From Solimicrobium silvestre (GTDB taxonomy: Bacteria > Pseudomonadota > Gammaproteobacteria > Burkholderiales > Burkholderiaceae_D), in assembly GCF_002976435.1 (NCBI RefSeq), contig NZ_PUGF01000003.1, positions 1 through 64,000 on the forward strand: a DNA stretch of 64,000 bases. Reading direction: 5' to 3'. Each line of letters starts with the position of its first letter. Position 1 is the first letter of the stretch. This document shows, in pieces, positions 18,408 to 26,989 of this stretch. A model generated the notes under the pieces. It made no database searches. It saw only the letters and a list, made by a program, of their open reading frames with translations, and was not told the DNA's origin. The position numbers and the translations under genes were made by a program.

Positions 18408-18779
18408 TTATAACAAAAAACGATCTTCATTTAAATGGCTTTCGGGGCAGCTAAACATCAACACAAGCTTTGTATTTCCGGTATTTTTTAATTGGTGAAG
18501 TGTGTTTTCCTGGACAACAAAAGATTGATGATGGTACACATCAACTTTAGTTAGCGCCTTACTTCCCACATCCACCAATGTCATTTCTCCGCTTCCCTGA
18601 ATGATGTGGTAGTGCTCATTACCTTTTTTATGGTAATGAGCATTGACTGATTTGCCAGGATCAATAGACGTTAAATACGTACTTAAGAACGCATCCCCCG
18701 CAAGCTTGGCAATTTTAATGCCGACAGTTGAGTCATAAATACACGTGTCTAGCGCGGTGTTCCAGTCGGTTAAATTCAT
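18408..18779 (-). CDS. Cupin-domain protein
   Basis: 123 aa single cupin barrel. Motif 1 is VNAHYHKKGNEHYHIIQGSGEM (split over ~residues 45-66), with two spaced His pairs and a Gly; motif 2 includes ENTLHQLKNTG. The metal ligands are plausible, so it may be a small metal-dependent dioxygenase, isomerase or sensor, but the substrate cannot be told. It is transcribed toward the regulator gene and diverges from the operator at 18996. Confidence 0.75.
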   Translation of the reverse strand: MNLTDWNTALDTCIYDSTVGIKIAKLAGDAFLSTYLTSIDPGKSVNAHYHKKGNEHYHIIQGSGEMTLVDVGSKALTKVDVYHHQSFVVQENTLHQLKNTGNTKLVLMFSCPESHLNEDRFLL

Positions 18780-18995
18780 TAATAGTGATCCTTAAAAAAT
18801 AAATGGCCATAGGTCGTTTGGATAGCTGTAGCTGAACTTAGCATAACAAATGAGTAAAAACAATGTGGTTTCATTTTTAGTATTTTCTCTAATTATTTTG
18901 AATTTTTCAGGTTCACACTTTATTTTTAATTAAATTCATTCTCACTTTTTCCATTCCGCATTTTATTGCTGCACCGCCCTTATTTTAAAAAACGG

Positions 18996-19017
18996 TTAGT
19001 CCAATTTTGTGGACTAA
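18996..19017. promoter_or_regulatory. Palindromic operator candidate, copy 1
   Basis: TTAGTCCA (18996-19003), spacer ATTTTG, TGGACTAA (19010-19017): 8-bp perfect arms. The inner 18 bp match the sites at 23660-23677 and 24000-24017, with consensus RGTCCA-N6-TGGACY. Size and symmetry fit a dimeric HTH regulator. It lies about 90-110 bp ahead of the leader remnant and 210 bp ahead of the 19228 gene. The gap 18780-19227 otherwise holds only the leader remnant. Confidence 0.6.
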
Positions 19018-19105
19018 CATTCTTTGCGTAAGTCTCGTAAGCTGCCATAACTTCCAAATTAATTTGAAAGCAGTTGCCAAAGATCGTTTTCAGCGAAAGT
19101 GCAAT

Positions 19106-19156
19106 TTGAGTCAAAAATTTAGTCGATGTTTTAACTCCGCGATAAATAACCGTTAA
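19106..19156 (+). pseudogene. Truncated leader-peptide gene, copy 1
   Basis: The DNA from 18996 to about 19145 is roughly four-fifths identical to 23658-23806. In copy 2 the matching TTG starts a 67-residue secreted peptide. Here the same TTG (19106) gives only 16 codons (SQKFSRCFNSAINNR) before TAA, and the ribosome-binding site is degraded. A decayed paralogue of the 23768 gene. Confidence 0.5.
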
Positions 19157-19227
19157 AGCAATTAGTGCGAACGCGGTCAACGTGAACGGAAATTTCCATT
19201 GGCAGCATTTTTATCGGAGGTCGTCAG

Positions 19228-19632
19228 GTGATACATAGTGAGTCAAGTACTTTGAAATCTTCAGTAGGTCCCAAATTGCCGACGGTGTGCATTGCGAACG
19301 CAATCGACACGCTTCGTTTGACAATCTTTCGTGCACCTACCGAAGGAGATCGGGAACGCATCCACAACTCCAACTACCCTCAACAGGACCAGGCAGTTTT
19401 CTGGCGCCCACTGGACAAGCTAATCGTTTCCGAAAGCCCAATTGTTGGCTTTGACTGGGTTACGCAAATGCTAGGTATCAAGAAGGCGAAGAATATCTGG
19501 CCGGAGAATAGTTGTGGATCATTGTTTAAGGACGTTGTCACGAGCAAAAATCTTCAAATGGAGATTTCTGAGTGGTGCGCAGACTCGGGGGGATTCGAGC
19601 TGATCGTGCACACAACCACACCAGAAACATGA
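19228..19632 (+). CDS. Protein of unknown function
   Basis: 134 aa with GTG start 19228, supported by GGAGG 8 nt upstream. No signal peptide or membrane segment. Features visible: FWRPLDKLIVSESPIVGFDW mid-protein and a C-terminal GGFELIVHTTTPET. The pattern is vaguely like the N-terminal pre-ATP-grasp domain of amino-acid ligases, with the rest of the protein absent, but I cannot establish this. The stop overlaps ATG of a 33-codon ORF (19629-19730) with no recognisable content. It is first in line after operator copy 1. Confidence 0.5.
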   Translation: MIHSESSTLKSSVGPKLPTVCIANAIDTLRLTIFRAPTEGDRERIHNSNYPQQDQAVFWRPLDKLIVSESPIVGFDWVTQMLGIKKAKNIWPENSCGSLFKDVVTSKNLQMEISEWCADSGGFELIVHTTTPET

Positions 19633-19711
19633 CCTATGTGTGTTCGATGCTGTTTGGGCGGCCAACTGAGTTAATCGGCAATTTTGTACATCCCGCACAA
19701 ATGCAAGAAAC

Positions 19712-20305
19712 TTGGTATTCATCCCAATGAAGATTACGGCTGATCATGCATGGACTGATGCTCTGACGCAAATAAGTGACCTTGGGCGCGCTCGTGGTGT
19801 GGAGGTGTCGCTGCACACACACTTCAATCACCCAACAGAGATTACATCCTTCGTAGTACAGGCATCTAACACGCTCTTTTCACGTGGTGTTATGGTGCGC
19901 AACCAGACTGTGCTCTTACGTGGAGTCAACGACAATTCCCAAACACTGGGAATGCTAGTCAAGCGCCTAGGTGACCTACACATCCACCCTTACTATGTCT
20001 ACTTATGCGATCCTGTATTGGGAATCGAAGACATGCGGGTTGATGTGGCCACAGCTTGCCGTCTAGAGAAAGAAATCCGCGGCTTAACCGCAGGGTACAA
20101 CATGCCGGCTTTTGTGGTGGACGCGCCAGGTGGTGGCGGAAAACGTCTAGTGCACAGCTATGAAGCTTACAACGCTGATTCTGGTTTGGTTTCATTCGCT
20201 GCGCCGGCCGTCAAACGCGGAAAGCTATTTCTTTACCCAGATCCTCTGCACACATTGAGTCCGGCTAATCGTCAGCGATGGTTTGACCCGGAAACGGCAC
20301 GATAG
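19712..20305 (+). pseudogene. Lysine-2,3-aminomutase-like fragment (C-terminal half)
   Basis: About 197 codons, from TTG 19712 or ATG 19727, with no ribosome-binding site. The sequence matches the C-terminal half of the KamA family: HTHFNHPTEIT, RNQTVLLRGVND, HPYYVYLCD and the PLP-region motif FVVDAPGGGGK. The N-terminal ~200 residues, including the radical-SAM CxxxCxxC, are absent in all frames upstream. The enzyme is therefore a fragment and not expected to be active. The parent may have acted on lysine, arginine or another amino acid. Confidence 0.8.
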
Positions 20306-20349
20306 ATGGTGCTGGCCGCTGCACCGGATGCGAACTGGTCGCTTCGTCA

Positions 20350-21741
20350 ATGACCTTTCGGAAGCGTTCAATTTCAGCAGCATCGCACGCTCGTCACTGG
20401 GAAGCAATTGCTGATCTCGTGCGAACCTTGGTCATCGGTGCCTTTCCGATCATTAGCTTCTACCTGGCAGAGGTTGCTATGTCGTTGACTGACGCTGCTT
20501 TTGTAGGCCATATCTCAAGCAAGGAATTGGCCGCTGTTGGCTTATCAATGGGATCGCTGTTTCCGCTACTGTTTGGTGCCATTGCATTGGTTTCCACCGG
20601 TGGGATTTTCGTCGCAGAGGCGCAAGTCAATAAGAATCACTTAGAAGTCAAGAGCTCACTGGATCTGAGTCTGTGGACATGCATTCTCTTCTCGCCGCTG
20701 TTAATGTTTGGCGGCGCAATGCTACCAGCATTGTTCGAGATTACGGGGCAGGATTCGTCAATTGTGAATCTCAGCTCGCAATATTTGAACGTTGTTATTT
20801 GGAGCATTCCTCCGATTCTTGGTTTTAGTGTCTTTCGAACTTTTGTAGCAGCGCTAAATAAAAACAGTATCGTGTTTAGCGTGAGCCTGGTCGGAGTTGT
20901 ACTCAACGCAGTACTGAACTACATTCTTGTGTTCGGCAAGTTCGGCGCTCCTGCCTTAGGCATCGTTGGTTCGGCTATCAGTACAACAGTATCATCGGCC
21001 ATTATGTTGGCTCTCATGGCACTGTATTGCGCACGTCGCCTCGATTATCGTTTTTCTCTATCTACCTACAGTGTAGTTAAAAGTTTTGCTGCGTTAGAGT
21101 TACTTCGATTGGGAGGGCCAGCGTTCGGGATTGGATTGATCGAAAGTAGTCAGTTTGGCATCGTGACCATTCTTGCAGGACAGTATGGCGTCAACTTCCT
21201 TGCGGCAACAACCATTGCCATTTTTGTCAGTGACCTGTTTATTGTTATTGCGTTGGGTTTGGGGGACCAACTGACCGTCGACATCGCTGCTTTTGCAGCT
21301 TCTGGAGATCGCGTCAGTTGCCGCAAGCTCGCTATTGCTGGCATCGGGCTAATGACACTGACGTGTGTTCCGATGGCTGCTGCATGCATTTTCTATCCTA
21401 ACGTACTTGTAAGTATGTTCTTAGACAGTTCCAATGTGGATGCTGCGTCCGTGTTGAACATCTCTCAAGAGCTCTTGGCTGTACTTGCTGTTTTTCTTTT
21501 CGCCGACGGAGCTCAGGTTGTGCTATCACGAAGTTTAAAAGGACTCCGCGACACGCTAGTTCCCATGTGGATAGCTGCGACAGGATATTGGATTGTGGGT
21601 ATTGGCGGTGGGTGGTGGCTTGCGAATCGCGCGGAATGGGGCGGTATTGGTTTATGGTATGGGCTAGCAGCTGGTCTTACGCTATCGTCCGTTGCGATGG
21701 GCTTTCGAATGCACTTCAAAGTTAAATCCACGGAGATTTAA
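20350..21741 (+). CDS. MATE-family efflux transporter
   Basis: 463 aa integral membrane protein with about 12 hydrophobic segments arranged as two bundles. The N-terminal segment P-I-I-x-x-x-L-A...M-S-L-T-D-A-A-F-V-G-H-I matches the MATE/NorM start, and the internal repeat includes G-G-P-A-F-G-I-G-L-I-E-S. It probably exports a small molecule using a Na+ or H+ gradient. It starts 44 bp after the aminomutase fragment in the same orientation, so the exported compound may once have been that enzyme's product (inference). Confidence 0.9.
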   Translation: MTFRKRSISAASHARHWEAIADLVRTLVIGAFPIISFYLAEVAMSLTDAAFVGHISSKELAAVGLSMGSLFPLLFGAIALVSTGGIFVAEAQVNKNHLEVKSSLDLSLWTCILFSPLLMFGGAMLPALFEITGQDSSIVNLSSQYLNVVIWSIPPILGFSVFRTFVAALNKNSIVFSVSLVGVVLNAVLNYILVFGKFGAPALGIVGSAISTTVSSAIMLALMALYCARRLDYRFSLSTYSVVKSFAALELLRLGGPAFGIGLIESSQFGIVTILAGQYGVNFLAATTIAIFVSDLFIVIALGLGDQLTVDIAAFAASGDRVSCRKLAIAGIGLMTLTCVPMAAACIFYPNVLVSMFLDSSNVDAASVLNISQELLAVLAVFLFADGAQVVLSRSLKGLRDTLVPMWIAATGYWIVGIGGGWWLANRAEWGGIGLWYGLAAGLTLSSVAMGFRMHFKVKSTEI

Positions 21742-21813
21742 ATTCGATATTTTAAAAGTATAGTCGTGCTAATACTATTAGCGCTCTGCCATTACTAATT
21801 GAAAGGAAATATC

Positions 21814-22223
21814 ATGTCAAAAACATCGTATTATTCACTTTAATGCTACCCGCTTTTCTCAGTTATGCAGCCGATGACATTGAAGAGGTGAGAACTCAAG
21901 CCACAAAACAGTATTTGCAAGAACAAGGCTTAATTTCCGGTTACCTGACCGGCTCCAGTGTCGGCGGCAATGCGCCGATGATGACAATGCAGTCCACGAT
22001 AGGTAGCGGAATCGGCAAGCCGCTATTTTTCGCTGCGCTTCAGAATAGCTCAGCCGGGCATGCCGTCTTCGCATCGATGCCTATCATTTTATTGATACTT
22101 GCCATCTCCGGTGGCGCACGACAGGGGGAAGAGTCTGATCTGGTTCGATACGGCCTACTCATGGTTGGACTCGTCGCTATTGTTATCGTTTTGACGGCGA
22201 TGGTACTAGTCTTTTATTGTTAA
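21814..22223 (+). pseudogene. Small membrane protein gene, probably frameshifted in its signal peptide
   Basis: ATG 21814 has a strong Shine-Dalgarno (AAAGGAAA) but stops after nine codons (MSKTSYYSL). A second frame starts at 21843 inside that stop (TAATG) and runs 126 codons, MLPAFLSYAADDIEEV onward. Joined by one base, the two would form a normal signal peptide cleaved after SYA. The C-terminal half has two transmembrane segments (ASMPIILLILAISGG; YGLLMVGLVAIVIVLTAMVL). Coupled re-initiation is an alternative. A 26-bp homologous fragment lies at 23067-23092. Confidence 0.5.
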
Positions 22224-22328
22224 CCGAAAATTTCCAGCTAGACGTAGCCGCATGCTTTCTTTTTGCAAACAAGAACATGTTGCGACTGCTTTGCATTTCA
22301 ATAGTTAGTCTTTCAAGAGGAAAATGCC

Positions 22329-22970
22329 ATGCACGTTCCAAAACACTTTGAAGAGCGAGATATCAGCGTTCTTCACTCACTCATCAGGTCGCACCCTTTG
22401 GGTACTTGAGTTACCCAAGCTGACGGTGCATTGATCGTTAACCACATTCCGTTTCTGGTTGACGCGACCCGTGGCGAGTATGGAACTCTTATTGGCCATG
22501 TTGCTCGGGCCAATTCGATTTGGAAATCATTTTCGAGTGAGATCGCGTCCGTCATCATTTTTCAAGGACCTCAGGGCTACATCACGCCATCTTGGTATCC
22601 GAGCAAACACAGACATGGCAAGGCCGTGCCTACCTGGAACTATACCGTCGTTCACGCCCACGGCATTCCTCGCGCCATTGAAGACAAAGACTGGCTCCTG
22701 CAACATGTCACTACGCTAAGCGACCTGTATGAATCAAAACGAGCTATGCCTTGGAGAGTCTCCGATGCACCGTCAGAGTACATCGACTCCATGCTTAATA
22801 CCATTATTGGCATTGAAATTCCCATCAACGCTGTTGTCGGCCAGTGGAAGATGAGTCAAAACAAACCGTTGTCAGACAAATTGGGCATCATCGAAGGCTT
22901 GCATGAGCATGTCGATGAAAATTCGCAGCAGATGGTGGCACTCGTGAAACGGGGCAACCACAAAATTTAG
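22329..22970 (+). pseudogene. PaiB-like FMN-binding protein gene with in-frame TGA
   Basis: From ATG 22329 (MHVPKHFEERD) the frame matches PaiB-type FMN-binding split-barrel proteins throughout: VNHIPFLVD, GHVARAN, FQGPQGYITPSWYPSK and VPTWNYTVVHAHG. Codon 27 (22407-22409) is TGA in the context H-P-L-G-T-*-V-T, where relatives usually have Trp, so TGG to TGA is likely. A downstream TTG (22431) leaves 179 codons but loses the first beta-strand. It was possibly a negative transcriptional regulator. AGAGG precedes ATG 22329. Confidence 0.8.
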
Positions 22971-23066
22971 GTAAGTTTTGGTAACCCTCAAGGTACCGGG
23001 GGCAAGTTGCTGCACCGGATTTTCTTCCGCATGTAATACGCCATGTTGTTTCAGAAGTTCTGGCGA

Positions 23067-23092
23067 TAATTTCCGGCTATCTGACCGGTTCC
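23067..23092 (+). repeat. Remnant matching the small membrane protein gene
   Basis: TAATTTCCGG-CTAT-CTGACCGGTTCC matches 21931-21956 with about three differences, in a frame giving ISGYLTGS in both. It abuts the duplicated regulator segment, so a larger block containing both genes was probably copied and then eroded. Confidence 0.5.
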
Positions 23093-23112
23093 GATACATA
23101 GTTCCAAGCCCG

Positions 23113-23661
23113 AAAGATATGCATTCAAGGCATTTTATTTCCACGGATGCCTATGCAAAACTCGTTGCGTTGCCGACAGGGTATCAAGTCACCAGTTGAT
23201 TTGATCGTGACATGCCCTGTGAAGGGACTGCACAGTTTGCCGACTGTTTTATTGAAGAAGATAACGCACTGTTGAATTCGGGCGATATACATCAAAAGAA
23301 ATCCACTCTCAATGTGCATGAATATAGTGGTGGAATACAGGCACTTGTATTCAATAAACACATCCTGAAACACCTCCCCTCTCAGTCAATTTTAGGCACT
23401 GTTTATAGCGCACACGAAATTGAAATAACTAACTTTTTTAAGCTTATGCCAAATTACATTGAGGAGTTTGGTATTGGGTGTAGCATCGAAAACGTTACTG
23501 GTACATTGAGCGTTGGAGATAAGCTGCTAACAGATTATGAGCATGAAGTCTGTTTTTTAATAATGATGAATTGGGATTTCAAACAAATAACAATGCGTAT
23601 TCACTGTCACTTTACCCCCCTCCTTTTATTGCAGTGCTCCTTGTTTTTTACAATCAGCTAG
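23113..23661 (+). pseudogene. Second, broken copy of the PAS/HTH regulator
   Basis: Bases 23113-23588 align without gaps to 17733-18208 with 13 mismatches in 476 bp. The N-terminal ~45 codons and the C-terminal ~35 codons (most of the recognition helix region) are missing. An in-frame TGA at 23197-23199 replaces AGG of copy 1. Ten of the 13 differences lie in the first ~90 bp. The remaining open frame from ATG 23212 has an unrelated 3' end. The high identity indicates a recent duplication. Confidence 0.85.
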
Positions 23662-23677
23662 TCCAATTTTGTGGACT
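23660..23677. promoter_or_regulatory. Palindromic operator candidate, copy 2
   Basis: AGTCCA-ATTTTG-TGGACT, identical over 18 bp to the core of the site at 18998. It is followed by about 130 bp of sequence conserved with copy 1, leading into a small secreted peptide gene. Confidence 0.6.
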
Positions 23678-23767
23678 TATATTCTTTGCGCAAGTCTCGT
23701 ATGCTGCCATGACTTCCAAATTAATTTAAAAGAAATTATCAAAGGTCGTTTTCAACAGGAGTGCAAT

Positions 23768-23971
23768 TTGAACCAAGAATTTAGTCGTTATTTTAGCTCT
23801 TGGATAAATTATAGATTGCCAGCAAGAAGAGCATTGATTTTTTGTGCGATGGTGATGTTTGGCGCAGAAAGTTCAGTCATCGCGGCTAATGTCCTTGGTG
23901 GCAACAACAATAGCAACATCAAAAACGGGCAGCGCCGAGCAGCTGCATGTTTGGCAGAAAGTACGACTTAG
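23768..23971 (+). CDS. Small secreted peptide, 67 aa
   Basis: TTG start 23768 with AGGAG at 23757-23761. A basic segment (residues ~14-21, YRLPARR) and a hydrophobic core (ALIFCAMVMFGAESSVIAA) form a probable signal peptide, leaving a mature peptide of about 27 residues that begins NVLGGNNNSN and contains one Cys. The frame is open upstream to 23669, but the duplicated leader and the ribosome-binding site support the later start. It lies between operator copies 2 and 3, upstream of the H-x-G enzyme. Function unknown. Confidence 0.5.
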   Translation: MNQEFSRYFSSWINYRLPARRALIFCAMVMFGAESSVIAANVLGGNNNSNIKNGQRRAAACLAESTT

Positions 23972-23999
23972 ACTAAATGAATTTTAGTTTTGAACGATG

Positions 24000-24017
24000 G
24001 GTCCACTTTAGTGGACC
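24000..24017. promoter_or_regulatory. Palindromic operator candidate, copy 3
   Basis: GGTCCAC-TTTA-GTGGACC: perfect 7-bp arms, matching the consensus RGTCCA-N6-TGGACY. It ends 43 bp before the ATG of the PhyH-like enzyme gene, a position suited to direct control of that gene. Confidence 0.6.
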
Positions 24018-24060: not shown

Positions 24061-24978
24061 ATGAAAATGATTAATAAAGACTTTATTGTGAGCGAGCAAG
24101 ATATCGCCTCGTTTCAAGACCGGGGCTTCCTACTACTAAAGAAATTCTTTAACGAAGACATGATAGCTTACCTGCAGCGACGCACAAGCGAACAAATTGC
24201 CGCGCCGACCGATAAATACCAAAGTGGATTTAACCGCCTCGCCTTCGATATGTTTGAAGGCGACCAACAGATCGATGATCTGCTGCAGGACCCAACTTAC
24301 CGGAAGACCGTGCTAGCACTGACCAAGCGCAATCTGCTGTTCACCCAGTCTATCGGTTTCGAGTTGAAGAAAAACACCAGTGCGGGTTTCCCTTGGCATA
24401 TTGGTACCCAGAGCTTCGGCTATCATCGCGCCGAAGATTTCGGCTGCACCATCTGGACGCCGCTGGCACCAATCGATACAAGCAAGCAGCGCAGCGGCAT
24501 GGCCTATACGCCCAAGAACATTATTTCGGGCGAATTCATGTACAACAATGTCGACCCGGCCGTGTTCGATTGTCTAGAAAAACGCGCGAATTCCGGGCAG
24601 AAAGTGGAAATGGCAGAGTTCATGGAATTGCGTGACGGTCCGCTTAATGCTGTGGCCATGAAGACGCTGCTCGATTATTTCTGCGTAGAAGATGATTTTG
24701 AGCTGGGCGACGCGCTCATTTTCGATAAATATGTCATTCACCGCAGCGTCATGCTGGAAGTGGGTCCACTGGAATTGCGCGCAGCCTTCGTCATGCGTTT
24801 TGTCTGCGAAACTTCGCAATACGATTACAAGCGCGCCCATAGTCTTGAAATACCGCGCAAATATTTTGGCTACGCCGGTCCTACAAAGTTTCACTTGGAA
24901 GTTTGCGAGAGCGATGGTGATCTGATTAAAAATAGCCCACTTTTCCCCGACCGCGAAAAGCGCTTGATCGCCGCATAA
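24061..24978 (+). CDS. PhyH-fold Fe/2-oxoglutarate enzyme with H-x-G motif; candidate radical halogenase
   Basis: 305 aa. The double-stranded beta-helix fold of the phytanoyl-CoA dioxygenase superfamily is recognisable. The proximal motif is His113-Ile114-Gly115 (FPWHIGTQ), 19 residues before WTPLAPID, where hydroxylases have H-x-D/E. The distal His227 is in DALIFDKYVIHRS, and Arg240 (LELRAAF) is placed to bind 2-oxoglutarate. Loss of the carboxylate ligand (Gly or Ala) is the hallmark of SyrB2, WelO5 and BesD-type halogenases, where chloride takes its place. A following LysE exporter suggests a free amino acid substrate. Inactive or non-halogenating variants remain possible. Confidence 0.7.
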   Translation: MKMINKDFIVSEQDIASFQDRGFLLLKKFFNEDMIAYLQRRTSEQIAAPTDKYQSGFNRLAFDMFEGDQQIDDLLQDPTYRKTVLALTKRNLLFTQSIGFELKKNTSAGFPWHIGTQSFGYHRAEDFGCTIWTPLAPIDTSKQRSGMAYTPKNIISGEFMYNNVDPAVFDCLEKRANSGQKVEMAEFMELRDGPLNAVAMKTLLDYFCVEDDFELGDALIFDKYVIHRSVMLEVGPLELRAAFVMRFVCETSQYDYKRAHSLEIPRKYFGYAGPTKFHLEVCESDGDLIKNSPLFPDREKRLIAA

Positions 24979-24994
24979 CCGATGACCTAATCAA

Positions 24995-25021
24995 CCATGT
25001 TCGCGAGAATCGCGAACATGG
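24995..25021. promoter_or_regulatory. Intercistronic 11-bp perfect hairpin
   Basis: CCATGTTCGCG (24995-25005), loop AGAAT, CGCGAACATGG (25011-25021). No T-run follows, so it is not a classical terminator. It may adjust the relative expression or stability of the halogenase-like and LysE messages. Confidence 0.6.
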
Positions 25022-25082
25022 CCGGCGGGATCGCAAGTGTATGCCAAGTTATGACTCACCCATTTTCTACCTCAGGAATATC

Positions 25083-25712
25083 GTGAACGGATTTTTTACC
25101 TATATTTTAATCGCCAGCCTGACAATCGCTAGTCCTGGCCCCGGCATTGTGTTATCGATTAGCAACTCTCTGAAATACGGACTGAAGGGCGCATTCCCCG
25201 GTATCGTAGGTGTAGCGGGAGGCATGTTCCTAGTGGCCTTGGCGTCGGCCACCAGCATGGGTGCCTTGCTGGCATCTTCCGTCACTGGATTTGCCATAGC
25301 CAAATCGATCGGGGCCGCCTACTTGATTTACCTGGGAATCAAGCTGCTGCGCTCCTCTTCAATCAAGCTCAAAGGCGATAGCGGCGAAGTTCCGCTGCAT
25401 CGTCCTAGTACAGGCGCGCGCTTCAAAGAAGGGATTATCTTGACCGTGTCCAATCCCAAGCCAATCATGTTCTTCATCGCGCTGTTTCCTCAATTTATCA
25501 ATGTAGCTTCGCCGTATGTCACGCAGTTTCTGTTTCTGTCGTCTACTTTTTGCGTGCTGGTGTTTTTGATTCATTCGATTTACGCGATGTTTGCCTACGC
25601 TATCAAGGCCAGAATCATGTCGGCCGGCGGGTTTACCATTATCAACCGCATCGGCGGCACCTGCTTCCTGCTGTTCGCTGGGCTGATCTTTTACACCACC
25701 AAATTCAGCTAG
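25083..25712 (+). CDS. LysE/RhtB-family amino acid exporter
   Basis: 209 aa from GTG 25083, with AGGA upstream; ATG 25041 would add 14 residues. Six hydrophobic segments. The N-terminal ASPGPG motif (S-P-G-P) and the C-terminal F-x-x-N-P-K-P segment (TVSNPKPIMFF) define the LysE superfamily. Members export lysine, arginine, threonine, homoserine and related compounds. It sits directly after the H-x-G enzyme, so that enzyme's product is a reasonable cargo (inference). Confidence 0.9.
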   Translation: MNGFFTYILIASLTIASPGPGIVLSISNSLKYGLKGAFPGIVGVAGGMFLVALASATSMGALLASSVTGFAIAKSIGAAYLIYLGIKLLRSSSIKLKGDSGEVPLHRPSTGARFKEGIILTVSNPKPIMFFIALFPQFINVASPYVTQFLFLSSTFCVLVFLIHSIYAMFAYAIKARIMSAGGFTIINRIGGTCFLLFAGLIFYTTKFS

Positions 25713-25744: not shown

Positions 25745-26989
25745 ATGACCGATCTGTTCTTTGCCGCCGTCCTTGTGTTTGTCTGCGTCCCCACCGCATT
25801 GAGTCGGCTACTGCGCATCGAACGGATATTTCCATTAGTATTTCTACAACTGGTGTTCGGCCTGTTTTTGAGTCAGAGTGGCCTGCTCGGCTGGCTCAAA
25901 ACGCAGCACATCGACTTCCTCAACGGTTCGCTCGGTTTTTCGCTACAGGGATTGGGTTGGCTTGGCGTTGTGATAATGATTGCGCTGGCTGGTGGCGATT
26001 CGATGTCCGGTACGCGCAACAGCAAGGCGTGGTACTTCGTACCCATCAGCGTGGTCGGCTTCAGCGTCACCTGCACTCTTGGCGGCCTAGTCGGCTATCA
26101 TCTGGCCACGCTGTACCCTGGAGTAGTTGGCAGCCAAGCCACGCCGCTGCGCAGCGCGTTTGCGCTAGGCGTGACCTTGTCGGTCACTGCGCTGCCGGTA
26201 CTGATTGCAATTTTACGCGACACTGGACTGGCCGCTAGCACCGTTGGTAAACTGGCGGTCAATTGCGCCATGCTCGACGACATCTGGATGTGGCTCGGCA
26301 TCGCGCTGATCCTTTCGTTCGACTCGACCAACGGCCACGTGGTGAGGATATTCCCGCTGCTGGCCGGCTATCTCGTCCTAATGCTGCTGGTGCTGCGACC
26401 AGTGTTGCGCCACCGGTATGGCTCAAAGTCGGCGACCAGTCTCAATGTAATCTTGGTATTTGTGTCCGTGATCTGTTTCTCCGCAATGCTGACTGATCTG
26501 ATCGGCCTGCACCCCCTGTTCGGTGCTTTCATCGGTGGTGCGATCTTCCCTCAGCAGGTATTGGATCAGTGGCGCGAGTCCTTGACGAGTATATGTCAAG
26601 TATTGCTCCTACCATTCTACTTCATCATGACAGGCATGCGCCTGCAATTCGATATCAGCGACCAAGCTTTCTGGCTCTTGACTACGATCGTCACAGCTAC
26701 AGCGGTGGCGGGGAAATTCATCGGCGTGGCACTGGCGGCGCGCTGCAGCGGTTTGCCGTGGCGCGAATCAAGTATGCTCGGCTGTCTAATGCAGTGCAAG
26801 GGTTTGATGGAACTGATTGCCATCAACATCTTTTTCGATACCAGGCTGATCGGCCCCAAGATTTACTCTGCACTGGCCATGATGGCATTGATCAGCACGC
26901 TACTTACCGTGCCGGCGATGACCATTATCAGTCGCGTGCGCCGAACAGCGACGCCGTGCCCCACCATAGACGCAGCCAAGCAAGTATGA
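25745..26989 (+). CDS. CPA2-type cation/proton antiporter
   Basis: 414 aa with 11-13 hydrophobic segments. It contains the conserved features of the Na+/H+ exchanger domain PF00999, such as GVTLSVTALPVL and LDDIWMWLG (charged pair within a membrane segment), and GAFIGGAIFP. No RCK/TrkA-N domain. The frame is open upstream to 25550, but that overlaps lysE; ATG 25745 starts 32 bp after it. It may exchange ions to support export or survive stress. It is the last intact gene of the accessory block. Confidence 0.85.
   Translation: MTDLFFAAVLVFVCVPTALSRLLRIERIFPLVFLQLVFGLFLSQSGLLGWLKTQHIDFLNGSLGFSLQGLGWLGVVIMIALAGGDSMSGTRNSKAWYFVPISVVGFSVTCTLGGLVGYHLATLYPGVVGSQATPLRSAFALGVTLSVTALPVLIAILRDTGLAASTVGKLAVNCAMLDDIWMWLGIALILSFDSTNGHVVRIFPLLAGYLVLMLLVLRPVLRHRYGSKSATSLNVILVFVSVICFSAMLTDLIGLHPLFGAFIGGAIFPQQVLDQWRESLTSICQVLLLPFYFIMTGMRLQFDISDQAFWLLTTIVTATAVAGKFIGVALAARCSGLPWRESSMLGCLMQCKGLMELIAINIFFDTRLIGPKIYSALAMMALISTLLTVPAMTIISRVRRTATPCPTIDAAKQV

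Follow-up and report, generated by a model that had tools for sequence, protein, structure and literature searches.

The chemistry of iron- and 2-oxoglutarate (2OG)-dependent radical halogenases is outlined in excerpts of PMC10187165: 2OG, a halide and O2 bind the iron, a haloferryl species abstracts hydrogen from the substrate, and the carbon radical thus formed takes up the halogen. In halogenases, the carboxylate ligand of the iron is usually replaced by Ala or Gly, letting the halide bind, according to excerpts of a second source (PMC8407142). The same excerpts describe the halogenase domain of the curacin A pathway (CurA halogenase) as acting on a carrier-presented substrate (PMC8407142). 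Free lysine is halogenated by BesD, and the chlorolysine goes to BesC, a haem-oxygenase-like oxidase (HDO) that then fragments it, as far as the excerpts of PMC10187165 go. The closest deposited relative of the protein described below is BtnX, deposited under the name of biotin halogenase (9pv1, 9q04) and identical to WP_012187119 from plasmid pDSHI01 of Dinoroseobacter shibae (locus L008); a BtnX publication was not found among open-licence PMC papers.

Here, a locus of Solimicrobium silvestre is compared with these systems. The window, i.e. the whole stretch of DNA analysed, covers 64,000 nucleotides (contig NZ_PUGF01000003.1, positions 1 to 64,000). It contains intact genes for a 305-aa protein of the Fe(II)/2OG halogenase family (24061-24978, + strand) and a 223-aa exporter of the LysE/RhtB family (25041-25712, + strand), separated by 62 nt and located exactly where an earlier note on this DNA had placed them. 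Judging by its relatives, the exporter may have its true start some 42 nt downstream of position 25041. A CPA2-type cation/proton antiporter of 414 aa (25745-26989, + strand; TIGR00932, E = 3.3e-21, below cut-off), which is absent from the earlier note, follows in the same direction 32 nt past LysE, and it is uncertain whether it forms part of the halogenase-LysE system. No antiporter-like ORF was seen in the loci of LysE-linked relatives. CPA2-type antiporters are present in loci L009, L018 and L030, and, provided that contig and record numbers correspond, the halogenases of L023, L026 and L036 presumably each have a further match roughly 7-8 kb downstream; in the latter three genomes, copies elsewhere match the window antiporter better. 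A promoter and terminator scan gave counts not above the shuffled expectation.

Motif, family and fold of the halogenase

The catalytic residues named in the earlier note are present and align with the H/G/H/R positions of BtnX and the CurA halogenase. In the motif H113-I-G115 (24397-24405, + strand), the histidine is a predicted iron ligand and the glycine is predicted to leave the halide site open, while His227 (24739-24741, + strand) is the predicted second iron ligand and Arg240 (24778-24780, + strand) the predicted 2OG anchor. The HxG motif, the second His and the Arg recur in all 42 aligned rows, even in the outgroup L010 with its 26% identity, a conservation that the alignment places far beyond chance. 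Besides the window and L010, these rows comprise 40 copies taken from 38 further loci; L007, L021 and L022 are identical sequences, L003 has an in-frame stop and was aligned from residue 62 onward only, and L019, whose halogenase is frameshifted in the assembly, was excluded from the tree and from the 42-row counts.

A search of PDB sequences returned BtnX (9pv1/9q04, E = 3.1e-86) and the CurA halogenase (E = 3.4e-26, residues 15-258). Both were found again with a profile of 28 sequences, followed only by weak matches, with SyrB2 and CytC3 marginal at E = 0.61 and 0.016, respectively. The AlphaFold2 model of the window protein is of high confidence (mean pLDDT 91.6, pTM 0.90). When Foldseek's matches to this model were aligned a second time, the best superposition among those shown was with 3nnf, the CurA halogenase with Fe, Cl and 2OG (Z 31.1, 2.6 A, 291 residues). 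Further Fe/2OG enzymes such as SnoK (Z 21.3) came next and BesD, more remotely, after them (Z 17.1); the matches shown, from a structure library with entries to April 2026, do not include the BtnX crystal structures. The earlier description as a PhyH-fold protein holds structurally, but the Pfam PhyH match lies below the gathering score (14.9 bits vs 22, E = 0.033). The proposal of a radical halogenase is well supported by the full-length homology to BtnX and the CurA halogenase, the confident fold model and the invariant HxG triad; neither of the two signs that the earlier note named as refuting it, a model with another Asp or Glu on the iron or clustering with H-x-G proteins known to lack metal or halogenation activity, was seen. 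On its sequence and modelled fold, the window protein is a member of the Fe/2OG halogenase family.

Distribution and phylogeny

The window's genome has one halogenase copy, its sole other match being weak, partial and 28% identical. Among 59 relatives, including the window genome and four others of the genus, and among 399 genomes of the order searched at E 1e-10, a match was found in the window's genome only. A pattern-based scan of genome contigs from 84,980 species yielded 32 loci, and 20 plasmid records contained a match, eight of which were examined in detail as plasmid loci; several relatives of the window halogenase are plasmid-borne. The window halogenase shares about 52-59% identity with relatives from Pseudomonas, Pantoea, Klebsiella, Acinetobacter, Vibrio, Amycolatopsis and a Psychroflexus MAG. 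Such a scattered distribution is a pattern indicative of horizontal transfer. A Telmatospirillum MAG (L019) contains the closest relative seen: over the aligned codons, two halogenase pieces are 85% and LysE is 82% identical to their window counterparts, and dN/dS values of 0.09 for the two pieces and 0.14 for LysE reflect purifying selection. The window's clade comprises 13 rows with a support of 92/95, not above the star threshold of the program, and the window itself stands on an open fork; the deep branches of the tree are resolved in part, with a long-branch warning from the program.

On a plasmid of Acinetobacter soli (L003, 8001-8915), the halogenase has an in-frame stop, by decay or sequencing error, and the LysE frame is open. 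The outgroup locus on a Pantoea plasmid (L010, 5803-13610) combines the 26%-identical HxG protein with octopine-type dehydrogenase, ATP-grasp, MFS and LysE genes, and two MAG contigs carry tandem halogenase pairs of the BtnX clade (L041, 5947-8003; L042, 4937-6993). A record labelled bacteriophage (L043, 995-1882), by visual inspection more like bacterial DNA, contains a broken distant halogenase relative, followed by an ORF that resembles a multi-pass transporter. A phage link was discarded, as the sole match in a phage collection, MT838212, has, on visual inspection, the appearance of bacterial sequence, with ORFs of the restriction-modification type and a broken homologue.

Pairing with the LysE exporter

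LysE-superfamily exporters carry a range of small molecules. The window LysE passes the Pfam model PF01810 (86.6 bits, gathering score 25.6, E = 2e-24), and its best NCBIfam models are of the homoserine/threonine type (116.6 vs 209 bits for the best one), all six lying below cut-off; the broad substrate range of the superfamily and these sub-threshold scores speak against the amino-acid reading preferred below. A LysE gene follows directly after the halogenase in 10 of the 13 rows of the window's clade (the window, L003, L004, L005, L006, L012, L013, L014, L015 and L017), and also in L019, which is not in the tree, and L020, which lies outside this clade. Pairwise identities of the halogenases correlate with those of their LysE partners (r = 0.955; 11 loci, 55 pairs), and none of 5000 permutations in a Mantel test reached as high a value. 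Over aligned columns, the window LysE shares 38-48% identity with the ten partner LysEs and 80% with that of L019, compared with at most 35% for the six other LysE-like matches in its own genome. Because the pair recurs in several genera and its proteins co-diverge, the association with an exporter suggested earlier is strengthened, and the halogenase-LysE pair is a conserved cassette. Among the literature matches listed from open-licence PMC papers, this pair is not described.

When ORFs lying within the pair or antisense to it are ignored, no gene beyond the halogenase and LysE recurs in three or more of the 12 LysE-linked loci, and consequently no common second enzyme informs the fate of the product. 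Genes shared by two loci are TetR (L003, L006), an HDO-like gene (L005, L006), an aldehyde-dehydrogenase-like ORF (L006, L012), a MocR-type aminotransferase (L004, L006), an SDR-type ORF (L005, L013) and upstream chromosomal genes (L014, L017).

A perfect 12-bp palindrome or hairpin (24995-25021) occupies part of the gap between halogenase and LysE in the window, and the segment 24970-25060 folds with a z-score of -2.69. The palindrome is unique in the genome at up to three mismatches, and gap hairpins of other sequence occur at several related loci. Folding z-scores below -2 were obtained for seven of 12 related gaps, with the other five halogenase-LysE gaps not below this value, vs three of 19 control gaps hand-picked from the tables of seven plasmid loci (Mann-Whitney p = 0.0035); since the loci are related and the control gaps hand-picked, this p value is only indicative. 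The hairpin could tune exporter expression.

Clues to the substrate

The kinship with BtnX suggests a reading in which the window protein halogenates biotin and LysE exports halobiotin as an antimetabolite. Although the two proteins share 44% identity over 299 aa without gaps, and biotin is the sole substrate named for any close relative (by PDB molecule name), BtnX belongs to a different clade, whose 17 rows are separated from the window by a branch with 99/100 support. As a common free metabolite, biotin would allow a two-gene cassette to suffice, but BioY and ECF genes occur in seven of 15 BtnX-clade loci and LysE in none of the 15, while BioY was not found at any of the 12 loci that share the window's clade, absence of LysE or BioY referring to the stretch examined, which reached about 6-8 kb to either side unless the contig ended sooner. 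By Pfam, the neighbouring ORFs of the window include no BioY either. Two residues that are invariant in the BtnX clade are also replaced in the window protein: the column of Ser97 (Gln96-Ser97, 24346-24351, + strand) holds Glu and that of Ala136 (24466-24468, + strand) holds His in 17 of 17 BtnX-clade rows, as against 0 of 13 in the window's clade, 0 of 8 in the Streptomyces-type group (L030 included) and 0 of 3 among L020, L024 and L028. In the model, column 97 falls in a predicted strand and column 136 just past another. Since BtnX sits in a separate clade that bears BioY and is free of LysE, and since the two clade-invariant residues are missing, biotin is less likely than a free amino acid; L018, a member of the window's clade, moreover adjoins an amino-acid ligase. 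The biotin reading is thus regarded as improbable, although it deserves consideration.

A free amino acid as substrate is suggested by the genes around the relatives. No carrier-protein domain (PF00550) was found within the window, and of six matches genome-wide, the nearest on the window's contig is at 206676. The three clade members without LysE (L011, L016, L018) adjoin ATP-grasp-type genes: L018 has an L-amino-acid ligase (LAL_C2, E = 1.7e-15), L011 an ATP-grasp gene together with an MFS gene, and L016 a sub-threshold ATP-grasp match only. In Klebsiella (L006), an HDO gene lies upstream (PF14518, E = 4.7e-36), the product of which matches BesC weakly and far below cut-off. A Pantoea HDO-like protein (L005) is 24% identical to that of L006 and may be decayed, since it has no Pfam match at E 0.1 and lacks most of the ligand-type motifs of L006. 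Two TENA/HDO-type genes are present in Serratia (L024). KamA-like radical SAM proteins are encoded near the halogenase genes of L020 (3975-7627) and L030 (6004-8573); both contain CxxxCxxC and, across phyla, they are 53% identical over 394 aa. GNAT and TauD domains lie beside the halogenase in seven Streptomyces-type loci (L009, L023, L026, L027, L031, L032, L036), with an M20 deacetylase and an MFS gene downstream in L036; L009 has a deacetylase gene as well as an ATP-grasp gene whose LAL_C2 match is sub-threshold. Taken together, the neighbouring genes favour amino-acid-like substrates for the branches outside the BtnX clade. The free amino acid proposed in the earlier note is therefore backed by context (LysE/RhtB, ligase, HDO and KamA-like neighbours, no carrier gene), but the claim is weakened because the closest deposited relative is named a biotin halogenase.

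In Kitasatospora xanthocidica (L036, 5932-12903), halogenase, GNAT, TauD, M20 deacetylase, MFS and further genes are grouped, and this cluster is a candidate for making the chlorinated portion of FR-900148.

Upstream remnants and a possible cryptic role

HDO, KamA-like and ligase genes beside the halogenase in relatives are also compatible with cryptic chlorination, in which the enzyme would make an intermediate for a larger pathway of the ligase, HDO or KamA type that has decayed here, leaving the halogenase and the exporter. Two loci contain material that fits this scenario. HDO-like remnants lie upstream of a Pantoea halogenase (L004), and in the window a C-terminal fragment of a KamA-family (2,3-aminomutase-like) protein (19712-20305) just precedes a MATE exporter gene (20350-21741), the two being situated 2.3-4.3 kb upstream of the halogenase. 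The CxxxCxxC motif is absent from the fragment and from the six frames of 18501-24000, which rules out the fragment as a working partner, and the stretch looks like a decayed pathway. It is flanked by two pairs of direct repeats (17716-18015/23096-23395, 93%; 18983-19147/23645-23809, 82%), a sign of duplication or insertion. However, the window remnant is merely 26% identical to the KamA-like protein of L030 over 110 aa, and most LysE-linked loci have only the two genes in common, so that the pair seems to suffice. A cryptic role is accordingly given little credence, somewhat less than halogenation of biotin.

Proposed function

The preferred reading, to which a probability of about two in three is assigned, is that the window encodes a carrier-independent Fe(II)/2OG radical halogenase of a free metabolite, most likely a common amino acid, and that LysE expels the product; it draws on sequence, the structural model and analogy. 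His113 and His227 would hold the iron and Arg240 the 2OG, while Gly115 would free the carboxylate site for chloride (or bromide). A chloroferryl intermediate would then take a hydrogen from an unactivated C-H bond of this small metabolite and give back a halogen atom. The LysE/RhtB-type exporter encoded just downstream would expel the halogenated amino acid, with producer protection or action on competitors as the presumed purpose.

A motif and a fold alone do not prove halogenation, and the HxG protein could instead hydroxylate, desaturate or have no turnover in vivo, with LysE exporting something else. This is the least probable of the readings retained and seems very doubtful, given that HxG is kept in all 42 rows, that the two nearest solved proteins are named halogenases and that the protein co-diverges with LysE. 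A generic PhyH hydroxylase is ruled out by HxG together with full-length halogenase homology, and membership in the BesD family by sequence, with no match at E up to 1.

Beyond halogenation and export of a free amino acid, a broader picture can be put forward tentatively, at somewhat less than even odds: a second lineage of free amino-acid halogenases, akin to CurA and BtnX and apart from BesD, which moves between phyla, sometimes on plasmids, as a cassette reduced to halogenation and export. The chlorinated amino acid that it releases would serve as an antimetabolite, and elsewhere the enzyme would form part of pathways of the ligase, HDO or KamA type. Should an amino acid be the substrate, halogenation of free amino acids would occur in a second sequence lineage. 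Enzymes able to halogenate unactivated carbons in free small molecules are scarce and sought after for synthesis. As the two-gene cassette with its intact exporter is movable to a laboratory host and its product directly readable by the chlorine isotope pattern, substrate and role are quickly testable.

Comparison with known systems

BtnX is a full-length homologue of the window protein with the same HxG, His and Arg positions, and is plasmid-borne like several of the window protein's relatives. It differs in its separate clade, in BioY/ECF genes in place of LysE and in Glu97 and His136, and its biotin substrate is known from the PDB name alone; these residue differences may point to what sets substrate choice. 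The CurA halogenase (3nnf family) is the closest fold among the superpositions shown and its catalytic residues align with those of the window protein, yet it is a domain with a carrier-presented substrate, whereas the window protein is free-standing and no PF00550 domain occurs in the window.

For BesD, HalA, HalB and HalD, the likeness is a proposed analogy, namely HxG radical chemistry on a free amino acid. They differ in sequence and structure (Z 16.2-17.1, 11-15% identity), and no BesD-type entry appears among the PDB sequence matches at E up to 1. The comparison with BesD drawn in the earlier note therefore holds by analogy, but BesD is not found by sequence and its structural score of 17.1 compares with 31.1 for the CurA halogenase. 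SyrB2 and CytC3 are likewise non-heme iron halogenases of amino acids, but their substrates are carrier-tethered, as stated in the excerpts of PMC8407142.

Both the chemistry and the family are already known. Neither the branch nor its pairing with LysE nor the amino-acid substrate that it probably uses is described among the literature matches listed from open-licence PMC papers, and the window protein apparently represents an uncharacterised branch of free-substrate halogenases that stands apart in sequence from BesD.
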